Origin: a virus
IMG/VR virus record: IMGVR_UViG_3300032081_001062
Span: 1-38,534 of that record
Direction: 5' to 3' (one strand)
Length of the DNA stretch: 38,534 bases
In this document: piece by piece, positions 6,380-38,521 of the stretch
Layout of the letters: every line of letters starts with the position of its first letter
Position numbering within the stretch: position 1 is the stretch's first letter
Program-made: the position numbers and the translations under genes
Notes under the pieces: model-generated
Database searches by the model: none
Seen by the model: the letters and a program-made list of their open reading frames with translations, nothing else
Told to the model about the DNA's origin: nothing

Positions 6380-6406
6380 GCGGGCATTCCTGCGGTGAAT
6401 TCGTGC

Positions 6407-6440
6407 ATTAGCATAATAGCGATTTAGCTAAATCGCTAAT
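6407..6440. repeat. TTAGC-box cluster with a 22-bp palindrome
   Basis: The stretch between parA and the parG-like gene contains ATTAGC at 6408-6413 and a perfect 22-bp palindrome at 6417-6438, with the core AGCGATTTAGCTAAATCGCT. It is AT-rich in a GC-rich context and belongs to the same box family as the sites beside the parA promoter. It may be an operator for the parG-like gene or part of the centromere. Confidence 0.6.
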
Positions 6441-6443
6441 TTT

Positions 6444-7101: not shown

Positions 7102-7190
7102 GAATTAGCGAATTAGCTAACTGTGCGCAGAGTATAAGCGCGCGGGCGCGCAGTGCAAGCGAATTATTGAATTAGCTAATTAGCTAAATA
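7102..7190 (-). promoter_or_regulatory. parA promoter flanked by TTAGC boxes; candidate centromere
   Basis: On the minus strand, TTGCAC (7158-7153), 16 bases, TATACT (7136-7131) is a good sigma70 promoter for parA. One box cluster (GAATTAGCGAATTAGCTAA, 7102-7120) lies between the start site and the parA ribosome-binding site. A second (GAATTAGCTAATTAGCTAAA, 7169-7188) lies upstream of the -35. The arrangement suits autorepression by the ribbon-helix-helix protein and could double as parS. The upstream cluster overlaps the 3' end of the gene at 7180-7635. Confidence 0.7.
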
Positions 7191-11032: not shown

Positions 11033-11310
11033 TGAAGATTCACCCGTTGTTTGCTGGGTTCAAGGGCGAAGACGCCTTCGCCGTGGGTGGCGCCCTGGGC
11101 TTCGACGTGCATATCGAAACCGCCGTCGGCGAGCTGCCGGCCGTGGTTCCGCCTTCGCTTGTGCGTCGAATGGGTGAGCGCGGCGACCTGGCCGGCTATG
11201 TGCCTGCTGGTGGCTGGGGCGCCCCTGGCGTGCATTGCCTGCTGTTCGTAAAGCCCAGGACTGACGCGGCCCTTGCTATGTGGCGCGCTGGGCTTTCTGT
11301 AGATCAATAA
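11029..11310 (+). CDS. Hypothetical protein, 93 residues
   Basis: The ATG at 11029 overlaps the stop of the Q-like gene; a second ATG follows at 11032. The protein is mostly beta-rich, with DAFAVGGALGFDVHIETAVG and a hydrophobic GVHCLLFVKPR strand. I do not recognise it. It is the last gene of the early operon, followed by a TTAGC-box cluster instead of a terminator. Confidence 0.5.
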   Translation: MMKIHPLFAGFKGEDAFAVGGALGFDVHIETAVGELPAVVPPSLVRRMGERGDLAGYVPAGGWGAPGVHCLLFVKPRTDAALAMWRAGLSVDQ

Positions 11311-11337
11311 ATAGCAAATTAGCGATTTAGCTAAATA
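11311..11337. repeat. TTAGC-box cluster upstream of the integrase
   Basis: ATAGCAAATTAGCGATTTAG followed by CTAAATA, the same box family as beside parA. It sits in the 119-base gap between the early operon and the integrase gene. It could be an operator for the integrase or part of the recombination site. No canonical promoter is evident beside it. Confidence 0.5.
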
Positions 11338-36089: not shown

Positions 36090-36284
36090 ATGTCACAAAA
36101 CGGAAACCCTTTGATCGGTGAGAGCAAGGGCGATACCATCGAAAGAACCTATGAGTTCGTCGAATGGCTGCTGATTCAGGCAGGCCACGGCGGGGCCACC
36201 CATCCGGGCATGGTTACCCAATTGCGCCTGGTGCTCGATGGCCTGGGCAGTTTGCGGGACGATACGGGCGGGGAAAAAAATTAA
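36090..36284 (+). CDS. Hypothetical protein, 64 residues, between tail and replication regions
   Basis: The ATG at 36090 has one of the best ribosome-binding sites in the window (AAGGAGG at 36076-36082), and a TAGAAT (36044-36049) suggests its own promoter. The protein is GDTIERTYEFVEWLLIQAGH in the middle and PGMVTQLRLVLDGLGSLRDD near the end: a small acidic helical protein. No family recognised. Its place next to repA suggests a plasmid role or a moron. Confidence 0.55.
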   Translation: MSQNGNPLIGESKGDTIERTYEFVEWLLIQAGHGGATHPGMVTQLRLVLDGLGSLRDDTGGEKN

Positions 36285-36314
36285 ACAGTTTTAGTGTTCA
36301 AGCCGTGGGGCCGG

Positions 36315-36323
36315 TGCTATGAT
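36315..36323 (+). promoter_or_regulatory. Extended -10 promoter of the rep leader
   Basis: TGCTATGAT is a near-perfect extended -10 element; the -35 is weak (TGTTCA at 36295-36300). Transcription should begin near 36330 and give a leader of about 320 bases before repA. The first hairpin of this RNA is GCCCG/CGGGC (36334-36338 with 36346-36350). Confidence 0.6.
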
Positions 36324-36377
36324 TTTGGCGCCTGCCCGGTTTGAACGGGCGGAAGAAAGAGAAAAAACAAGGGTTTA

Positions 36378-36453
36378 GAAAAAAGAAAACCCCAGGCTTG
36401 CCGGCCTAGGGTTTTCGGGGATCGGCAGCACAAAGCTCACACGACGCCAGACA
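36378..36453 (-). ncRNA. Candidate antisense RNA controlling repA (CopA/RNAI-like)
   Basis: On the minus strand TTGCTT (36488-36483), a 17-base spacer and TAAACT (36465-36460) form a promoter. A transcript from about 36453 ends in a hairpin (36415-36386: AAAACCC/GGGTTTT outer stem, AGGC/GCCT inner stem, 6-base loop) followed by a T-rich tract (CTTTTTTC, 36385-36378). The product of about 75 nt is wholly complementary to the rep leader. Size, direction and position upstream of a leader peptide match the copy-number RNAs of IncFII, IncB and IncL/M plasmids. Confidence 0.65.
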
Positions 36454-36516
36454 CGTCAGAGTTTAGCGGCCGGTCACCTTCTAAGCAAGCCCGATGCTTA
36501 GCAGGGACAGACGCTG

Positions 36517-36654
36517 ATGACCGACGCAACGCCCACGCTTGGGCGGCCTTCCGTTATGCGGGGGCACATTCCGCACCCGTACCCGGGGGAAAGCCAGGGC
36601 ACGGCCAGCCGTAAAGGCTACCCCGCCGCCCCATTCCTGGGGGCGCGCCTTTGA
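36517..36654 (+). CDS. Rep leader peptide (tap-like), overlaps the repA start
   Basis: 45 residues from the ATG at 36517 (AGGGAC upstream), or 32 from the in-frame ATG at 36556; both end at the TGA at 36652-36654. The stop overlaps the repA TTG codon as TTGA, the strict arrangement for translational coupling. A hairpin covering the repA ribosome-binding site lies just before the stop, so ribosomes finishing this peptide would open it. The peptide sequence itself (HIPHPYPGESQG) has no evident function. Confidence 0.65.
   Translation: MTDATPTLGRPSVMRGHIPHPYPGESQGTASRKGYPAAPFLGARL
36627..36645 (+). promoter_or_regulatory. Hairpin hiding the repA ribosome-binding site
   Basis: CGCCCC (36627-36632) pairs with GGGGCG (36640-36645) across a 7-base loop. 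The GGGGG at 36639-36643 is the only plausible Shine-Dalgarno for the TTG at 36651. The structure should keep repA off unless the leader peptide is translated through it. Confidence 0.65.
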
Positions 36655-37517
36655 ACCCCCGCAATTTGAGCCTTGCCGGCGCCGTCGCGGCTGCCGCATT
36701 CAACGGCCTGACCGATCACGCCCCGAAACCCCGGCTAAAGCTGGTCGACCGCTCGCCCCTGGAGCGTCGCCCGCGTGCGCTGACCGACGCGCAGCGCGGC
36801 ACCCTGCTGGGCCTGGCGGCCGAGCGTATCGCCGAGGAAGCGCAAGACCGCGCCTGCCGCTGGCTGCGCCGGCTCGACACCATCCATATTTCTGGCGTGC
36901 GCACCAAGCGGCAGCGCTGGGATGCCCTGGCCAAGATGGCCGAGCCGCTACTGGCCCGCCTCGACCTGGCCACCCTGGCCCTGGGCTGGCTGGACAGCCA
37001 GACCGGCGCCTTCAGATTGAACCGCCAGCGGGGCCTCGCCGAAGACACCGGCCTGTCGGAATGCTGCGTATCGCGCACCCTGACGGCCCTGGAGTCCGCC
37101 GGCTACCTACGCCGCCGCGTGCGCCGGATTTTCAAGCACGGCAAGCATTGGGTCAGTCGCGTGACGATCCACATTCGCCCGCGCTTCTTTATCGACCTGG
37201 GGCTAGGCCATCAACTGGCCGAAGAGCGCACCCGCAAGAAGGCCAAGCGCGACAAAGTGCTGGCCGCCCTGGGCATGCAGAAGAGCCGCGACCGCCTGCA
37301 AGCCATGGTCGAGCAGTCCGCGCGCAAGCGCAGCCACCTGAAGGCCACCCAGGCCCGCGCCAAGCAGGAAGCCGAGCAGACCGAGCAACTGCGCCAGGAT
37401 CGCGAGCGAGCCCGCGCCGCCGCCTGGGCTAGTTTCGCTGCCGAACCTGACGTGCAAGCGCAACCAAGGCGCAAGCAAATCGCACTCTTCGGCCAGCGCT
37501 TCCCCGACCTCATATAG
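36651..37517 (+). CDS. repA: RepA-type plasmid replication initiator (IncFII-like family)
   Basis: 288 residues from a TTG start, which is the only start consistent with the leader overlap; no ATG follows before well into the conserved part. The middle (LARLDLATLALGWLDSQTGA then RLAEDTGL-type winged helix SECCVSRTLTALESAGYLRR) and the following HWVSRVTIHIRPRFFIDLGL fit the IncFII/RepA1 family. The C-terminal 90 residues are a very basic helical region (KKAKRDKVLAALGMQKSRDR and on). It should bind the origin just downstream and recruit host replication proteins. The N-terminal LSLAGAVAAAAFNG is hydrophobic. Confidence 0.78.
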   Translation: MNPRNLSLAGAVAAAAFNGLTDHAPKPRLKLVDRSPLERRPRALTDAQRGTLLGLAAERIAEEAQDRACRWLRRLDTIHISGVRTKRQRWDALAKMAEPLLARLDLATLALGWLDSQTGAFRLNRQRGLAEDTGLSECCVSRTLTALESAGYLRRRVRRIFKHGKHWVSRVTIHIRPRFFIDLGLGHQLAEERTRKKAKRDKVLAALGMQKSRDRLQAMVEQSARKRSHLKATQARAKQEAEQTEQLRQDRERARAAAWASFAAEPDVQAQPRRKQIALFGQRFPDLI

Positions 37518-38180
37518 CCCCGCCATCCACATAACCGCCCCTGGCGGTGCCTTCGCACGCCTGCGCGCCGCCTGGCCGCTTTCTGACCCCTTCCCGCGTG
37601 CAAATTCCCCCATCCGCCACCCGTTCCCGTGCCCGGGATGGCCAAAAAATGGCACCGCCCGCCGCCCGCCCGAGGCGGGCTTTTTGAATAATGCAAACTT
37701 TTAGGTCGAGTGGTACCGAAGGGCTTTAAAGCAGAGCCTTTAAGATCGCAAGCCACATGCCATCGGCGCATGCCCGAACACCCTAGCAATGATGCCGCGC
37801 GCTGATTCGCGCCTTCGGCGCTGCGCGACGAAAGAGCGAGGCCCGTTCCAGTTGCTGCACGCCGAGGAAGTCCGCGCCGTGCCTGCAACGCCGTGCAACG
37901 GCGTTTCGCGCCTTCACGCGCCTGGCCTTCGGCCGCGCCGCTACGCGTCGCTAGCGAACAGGTCAGGGGGTGGGCCTTGCCTCTTTCGCTGATCCTGAAC
38001 GCCTGCGCACGCGCCTGGAGCGAGATAAGCGAAAGGCCATAGCAGCGCCGCCAGGAAGGCCGGCGCACGCTGGTGGCGTTCCTGGGCGGCTTTCTGGATG
38101 GCTGGCCAGGCTTGCCCGTTGCCGGCGCTGGCCGGGCGGTGCTCTGCCATCCGCCGGCGGCTTACCTGGGTGGCTCTATA
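37518..38180. other. Gene-free stretch after repA; probable replication origin
   Basis: No convincing gene in 663 bases. CCATCCACA (37523-37531) is a 7-of-9 match to the DnaA box, just behind the repA stop where IncFII-type origins lie. A terminator follows: GCCCGCC/GGCGGGC (37664-37670 with 37674-37680) with five T residues. Beyond it come an AT-richer stretch (37686-37745, with two TTTAA motifs) and a palindrome AACGCCGT-GCA-ACGGCGTT (37887-37905). I see no obvious iteron array. Confidence 0.5.
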
Positions 38181-38266
38181 ATTAGCTATTGCGCTAATTA
38201 GCGAAACGCGTAGAATGCGACGCACGGCCAGGCGATCCCGCCCAGGCCAAGCCCGGAGCCTTACCG
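38180..38266 (+). promoter_or_regulatory. Promoter-leader cassette, copy 1
   Basis: TTGCGC (38189-38194), 16-base spacer containing TAATTAGCGAAA, TAGAAT (38211-38216), and AATTAGC just upstream. The leader (GCACGGCCAGGCGATCCCGC ... CGGAGCC) is close to copies 2 and 3. It drives the gene at 38267 and, across the circle junction, probably the HTH gene at 149. Confidence 0.7.
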
Positions 38267-38521
38267 ATGACCAAGAAAAAGCAAATCGCCGCCCTGACTC
38301 TGAATCTGCAAGCCGCCGAAGCCGCGTTCGCCGACGCAGACCGCTTGATGGATTCGTGGACGCCTGAAGATGGCGCCGCCACTGGCGCGGAAATCGAAGC
38401 CCGCTATGACGCCGCCCGCGCCCAGGTGACCGCCTGCCGCGACGCCCTGCGCGCCGCGCAGTTTGCCGGCCGCCGCGTCTGCCCTCATTCTGCCGCCCTG
38501 GCTTCGGCCAATATCGACTAA
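38267..38521 (+). CDS. Hypothetical protein, 84 residues, spans the window junction
   Basis: MTKKKQIAALTLNLQAAEAA then FADADRLMDSWTPEDG, AEIEARYDAARAQVTACRDA and a Gly/Arg tail. Almost entirely helical, probably a coiled-coil hairpin. No family recognised. The ATG lies at the standard position behind the cassette leader (CGGAG). The same reading frame continues at bases 1-98 in the overlap. It is followed by a hairpin of the form GCCCGCCGCCGGCG... (100-129) and then the HTH gene. Confidence 0.6.
   Translation: MTKKKQIAALTLNLQAAEAAFADADRLMDSWTPEDGAATGAEIEARYDAARAQVTACRDALRAAQFAGRRVCPHSAALASANID

Follow-up and report, generated by a model that had tools for sequence, protein, structure and literature searches.

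A probable antisense RNA and leader-coupled copy-control module upstream of the RepJ-type initiator gene of a phage-plasmid

The stretch of DNA analysed here (hereafter, the window) is a viral record of 38,534 bases, the first 111 of which recur at its end with 99% identity, and therefore it represents a circular molecule. The window encodes a lambda-type portal protein, a GpA-type terminase, tape-measure and GPD-like tail proteins, along with a CI-like S24 repressor, a ParA-like partition protein, an endolysin and a tyrosine integrase. Given that it also carries a replication initiator gene (rep; 36651-37517, plus strand), the window is best read as a complete circular phage-plasmid, and the phage seems to be kept in its host as a plasmid. 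It might also integrate: because a tyrosine integrase is present, integration remains an alternative to plasmid life. Elsewhere in the window, the dyad AATTAGC-N6-GCTAATT, with up to 3 mismatches, has fourteen matches compared with 0.5 expected; these sites (542-561, 1022-1041, 6406-6441, 7103-7189, 11309-11336 and 38180-38199) cluster around the parA gene and before three ORFs, and are probably either the operators of a single phage regulator or sites for partition. A unit of about 94 bp that consists of the dyad, a promoter-like stretch, a ribosome site and an ATG is present in three copies (539-632, 1019-1112 and 38180-38275), each of which precedes a small ORF.

The rep gene codes for a RepJ-family initiator of 288 amino acids with a central winged-helix-like region. 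General searches with this protein gave weak helix-turn-helix and replication-initiation matches, and a sequence search of the PDB returned weak helix-turn-helix regulators only. The tblastn comparison with RepJ of plasmid pPsv48C, at about 38% identity over residues 41-244 (E about 1e-15), identifies the protein as a homolog of the RepJ initiators of pPsv48C and pA506. The matched region of the pPsv48C protein has been shown to be essential, and autonomous replication by repJ of this plasmid has been demonstrated (PMC5304414). The control module upstream of rep drives two Rep families in different relatives, RepJ and RepA-Pa (the latter scoring 71% against pP27494_2), which are at most remote relatives of each other.

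What, then, lies between the rep-mRNA promoter and the rep start? The promoter is predicted from an extended -10 element, TGCTATGAT (TGcTATGAT; 36315-36323, plus strand), with a start at approximately 36330, just where the first-pass annotation had placed it; TGNTATNNT is found at the equivalent place in close relatives. Immediately upstream is an imperfect dyad, TTAAACA-N7-TGTTCAA (36281-36301, no strand assigned), and dyads with changed arms occupy the same place in relatives, namely AACACTtttAGTGTT in locus L093 and GTTCACTcatAGTGAAC in L012. A function as a repressor operator is possible for this dyad, and its recurrence upstream of the rep promoter suggests a protein repressor acting on rep mRNA, for which CopB of plasmid R1, a protein repressor of rep mRNA, offers a parallel. 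The 5' end of the rep mRNA is predicted to fold into a hairpin (36332-36352, plus strand).

The opposite strand carries a putative promoter (36460-36488) with a -35 hexamer TTGCTT (36488-36483), a 17-bp spacer and a -10 hexamer TAAACT (36465-36460), followed by a terminator stem (36416-36385) and a T-tract. The antisense RNA predicted from these conserved elements, with its ends inferred from them, would run from 36453 to 36378 on the minus strand (about 76 nt), matching the RNA of about 75 nt that had been proposed from the window sequence. The hairpin in question, HP-I (36385-36416, with the loop UUGCCG at 36398-36403), would thus be both the antisense target on the plus strand and the terminator on the minus strand. 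A consensus scan of the window alone picked up neither promoter, and a terminator scan found one terminator compared with 1.7 expected in shuffled sequences; such simple single-sequence scans do no better than chance, and the case therefore rests on relatives. A minus-strand TTGC(NN) -35 element, a 17-bp spacer and a TA(A/G)ACT -10 element are present in all 37 aligned copies of the module, and the terminator hairpin with its T-tract is likewise kept in 37 of 37. The predicted antisense RNA alone folds with z = -3.9 relative to shuffles. The HP-I stem covaries and its loop is variable: the window and its nearest relative, the sister phage contig L013, are about 92-98% identical over most of the module and only 65% identical in the bin 36401-36450, where the loop side of HP-I and the 5' tail of the antisense RNA lie; the loop is TTGCCG in the window and CGGCAA in L013. 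Such variability of HP-I and of the antisense tail is the pattern that would be expected of an incompatibility determinant, and the short antisense RNA opposing the rep start probably sets copy number.

In the plus-strand RNA, P1, HP-I, P2 and HP-II are predicted to form a covarying three-way junction. The 5' strand of P1, GUUUAGAA (36373-36380), would pair with 36479-36486, and P2 (36417-36426 with 36469-36478) would close the arm that includes HP-II (36433-36464). In the 37-sequence alignment, which was made with MAFFT and not fitted to the structure (an earlier first set comprised 17 sequences), 81.9% of the cells of the whole junction pair. P2 and HP-I are the strongest elements: in P2, 88% of the cells are paired and 5 of 10 pairs show double-sided changes; P1, with 82% paired, is mostly conserved, its few compensations affecting two pairs. 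Altogether, there are 82 cells with double-sided changes compared with 28.7 in shuffled alignments and 15-45 in slid registers, although the slide control favours the junction because the structure was derived from those same sequences. Folding and covariation among relatives, the checks that the first-pass annotation had called for, turned out in its favour, as did the fold of the antisense RNA.

The 3' strands of P1 and P2 are predicted to be able to fold on the leader Shine-Dalgarno sequence AGGGA (36503-36507) instead, in an alternative hairpin (36473-36508, plus strand) that excludes P1 and P2 and exists as a model only. When the antisense footprint was blocked in folding calculations, predicted accessibility of the Shine-Dalgarno sequence fell by 0.14 on average, compared with a change of -0.06 when the leaders were shuffled. 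The predicted effect in the window is modest (from 0.40 to 0.15, and a change of 0.08 in a shorter construct); it is strong in L005 and zero in L016, L017 and L104. On these model calculations, a specific switch that sequesters the Shine-Dalgarno sequence is a tentative proposal, to which we give slightly less than an even chance.

The leader ORF (36517-36654, plus strand; 45 codons) and rep share the stop-start overlap TTGA (36651-36654). Both had been noted earlier and have equivalents in the relatives: each of the 24 RepJ-type loci examined has an ORF, 25-45 codons long, that begins at the ATG of the module and ends in a 4-nt overlap with the rep start, of the form RTGA or TTGA. Leader peptides of these loci are unrelated between lineages, and the overlap alone is kept. 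The GC hairpin that had been reported to cover the rep Shine-Dalgarno sequence (GGGGG, 36639-36643) is present as well, at 36625-36648 on the plus strand, with z = -1.6; similar folds are seen in L005 and L071 and are not clear in L012 and L101. RepA-Pa-type loci have no leader, and the ATG of the module itself is the rep start. The first approximately 32 codons of the window leader come from such a RepA-Pa-type rep start: 85 of 95 nucleotides are identical to the RepA-Pa rep start of L013, after which, at a recombination point in 36600-36612 (no strand assigned), identity to this contig drops from about 90% to about 40%. Because of this match and the subsequent drop, the leader is, from these alignments, best read as the truncated stump of a former RepA-Pa gene that was left when RepJ was joined to the module. 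Within 55 nt of the start codon of the leader or RepA-Pa gene (36517-36575), two possible hairpins recur in many members of the set and seem conserved on inspection; their single-sequence z values, from +0.8 to -3.2, are not significant, and hence they are not claimed. Short leaders with an (L/S)CK/SCN motif, possibly a conserved leader peptide, precede RepJ in plasmids of the pA506, pPsv48C and Azotobacter types (L132-L138). In the viral contigs L159-L161, L177 and L185, RepJ-like genes occur without the module; the gene before them is longer and shares a 4-nt overlap with the rep start.

When a covariance model of the control region built from 17 sequences was run on 83 viral loci gathered by their Rep proteins, 45 gave full-length matches (27-163 bits), all immediately upstream of rep; of these loci, a few had already served to build the model and many are close relatives of one another. 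The control region is also found in the Pseudomonas aeruginosa plasmids CP124676 and pPAC1.3b, in P. lundensis pPL-38ph, in pHN2, and in Delftia pHQS1, phage PARCL1pr, IMG/VR contigs and Azotobacter beijerinckii. Locus searches with single proteins yielded none that could be confirmed, whereas alignment-based searches succeeded, and a nucleotide search of phage and plasmid collections in 'near' mode with the whole 2.7 kb region found no match. Most matches in a pattern scan across 84,980 genomes were due to chance, three being real as judged by the promoter-plus-upstream context. The model search of 399 Pseudomonas genomes produced four matches with E < 1e-5: one strong and two diverged homologs, and L130, which was judged from its surroundings to be due to chance. 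In Rfam, nothing scored above threshold (the best sub-threshold match was rnk_pseudo, with 22.5 bits against a cut-off of 55), in agreement with the earlier impression that the sequence is unrelated to IncFII, IncB and IncL/M.

The best precedent is REx-C, a type of control module that was reported, together with its putative antisense RNA, in four plasmid families in Pseudomonas, with no mention of phage (Bardaji et al., 2017; PMC5304414). REx-C modules have a coupled leader, repI, before repJ and none before RepA-Pa or RepA-RA2; they are exchanged among rep families, and incompatibility was experimentally shown to lie in the control module (PMC5304414). REx-C of pPsv48C, pA506 and pP27494_2 has a minus-strand terminator hairpin, SaL1, and further stem-loops with a putative antisense promoter; the leader ORF is present before repJ and absent with RepA-Pa; the module is swapped among non-homologous reps; and the downstream Reps belong to the same families, RepJ and RepA-Pa. 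The window, likewise, has a predicted minus-strand antisense unit with its terminator hairpin directly upstream of rep, and its module is found before more than one non-homologous rep family, with a recombination breakpoint near 36600. In sequence, by contrast, the regions outside HP-I/SaL1 do not align: under the covariance model, the closer copies of the module reach mostly 110-165 bits, whereas REx-C reaches 12-21, nearly all of it from HP-I. Similarity to the 175-194-nt REx-C core (SaL 1-3) was not found, pPsv48C and pP27494_2 being absent among the distant blastn places, which carry the window-type module. Since alignment is limited to HP-I, the module is not the published REx-C by sequence, and the three-way junction and Shine-Dalgarno switch are proposed here only. 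Thus, the closest known system is REx-C/REx-R of Pseudomonas plasmids, not an enterobacterial one, and the two are alike by design.

In IncFII plasmids (R1/R100), the CopA-tap-repA system combines an antisense RNA against the rep-mRNA leader with a short leader ORF translationally coupled to rep; Blomberg 1992 is among the works cited in PMC5304414. The window resembles this arrangement in having a predicted antisense RNA directed against the rep leader and a short leader ORF, which may be coupled to rep; there is no CopA-like match in Rfam and no IncFII RepA match in Pfam for Rep, and, unlike IncFII, the module is predicted to function without a leader in the RepA-Pa relatives. In ColE2-type replicons, an antisense RNA, RNAI, represses Rep translation via a folded 5' UTR. 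The likeness of REx-C to this mode of control has been pointed out (PMC5304414), although both the Rep family and the sequence differ from those of the window.

On the sequence evidence, the cassette is real and conserved and is probably an antisense/leader copy-control unit of the REx type: comparison among relatives supports the conserved antisense promoter and terminator, the covarying junction and the invariant leader overlap. For transcription, the direction of regulation, the fold switch and reinitiation, we infer the following course of events. The rep mRNA, starting near 36330, would bear HP-I, the target of the constitutive antisense RNA of about 76 nt from the opposite strand. Without antisense RNA, the mRNA leader would fold as the three-way junction (P1, HP-I and P2/HP-II), in which P1 and P2 would hold GUCACCUUCUAAGCA, leaving the Shine-Dalgarno sequence of the leader ORF free. 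Ribosomes translating the 45-codon leader would then melt the hairpin over the rep Shine-Dalgarno sequence and reinitiate at the TTGA overlap, so that Rep is made. As copy number rises, the antisense RNA would pair with HP-I and the 5' strand of P2, and the freed GUCACCUUCUAAGCA would fold back on the leader Shine-Dalgarno sequence (36473-36508), stopping translation of the leader and, with it, of Rep. We consider antisense RNA and leader-coupled copy control of phage-plasmid replication likely, with good though not full confidence.

Mutually exclusive folds in a leader would also be compatible with transcriptional attenuation of the pT181/pIP501 type, in which antisense binding ends the rep mRNA early. 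This is very improbable, given that the stretch from the promoter to rep has no plus-strand intrinsic terminator, the sole terminator-like site being on the minus strand, and that the alternative hairpin lacks a following U-run and covers the Shine-Dalgarno sequence instead. Another comparison is with the IncI-alpha/B/K/L/M group (Inc RNA-repY/repZ), with an antisense RNA of about 70 nt, one main stem-loop and a leader; in the IncI-alpha/B/L/M scheme, the HP-I loop would have to form a pseudoknot close to where rep begins once the leader has been translated, and the antisense RNA would compete for this loop. Leader coupling is predicted here too, and several relatives have the loop UUGGCG, a motif that the reference list of PMC10724649 associates with the target of the ColIb-P9 Inc RNA. 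Nevertheless, we regard this scheme as most improbable: in 12 RepJ-type loci, the stretches complementary to the loop that lie between the module and rep are neither longer nor better than in shuffles, the loops vary without matching downstream change, and REx-C chimeras spoke against a pseudoknot (PMC5304414). As the loop complements are at chance level, only the IncFII-like leader coupling stays from the IncFII/IncB/IncL/M logic that the first-pass annotation had proposed; the activator pseudoknot of IncB and IncL/M does not.

The 4-nt overlap could, instead of termination and reinitiation, reflect a programmed -1 frameshift that produces a leader-Rep fusion, an idea lent some appeal by the RepA-Pa arrangement, in which Rep continues in frame from this same peptide start. 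We judge this very unlikely, as CCTTTGA at the overlap in the window is no classical heptamer and the leaders differ wholly between lineages, the overlap alone being retained. Equally unlikely in our view is that there is no functional antisense RNA, HP-I being just a terminator or a structural element of the rep mRNA and the opposing promoter a product of chance. The promoter hexamers are indeed poor by consensus and overlap bases needed for P1, so that part of their conservation has another reason; yet both hexamers with their 17-bp spacing are retained in all 37 copies, as are the terminator and the T-tract on the minus strand, and variation centres on the target loop and tail.

Returning to antisense and leader-coupled control, we tentatively entertain a broader hypothesis, which we consider somewhat less probable than its negation: the module could represent a second family of plug-in control cassettes, distinct in sequence from REx-C, in phage-plasmids of Pseudomonas, Azotobacter and Delftia, in which the antisense RNA would flip the junction to the Shine-Dalgarno hairpin and the leaders would be stumps of rep swaps. 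A swap that cuts the old rep just past its start would leave a coupled stump before the new rep, that is, a leader peptide. The idea of modular control is widened from Pseudomonas plasmids to phage-plasmids, and the module now has a searchable covariance model. The scheme offers testable accounts of how antisense binding may shut off initiation and of how coupled leader peptides may originate, and the HP-I loop sequences directly predict which phage-plasmids can coexist in one cell.
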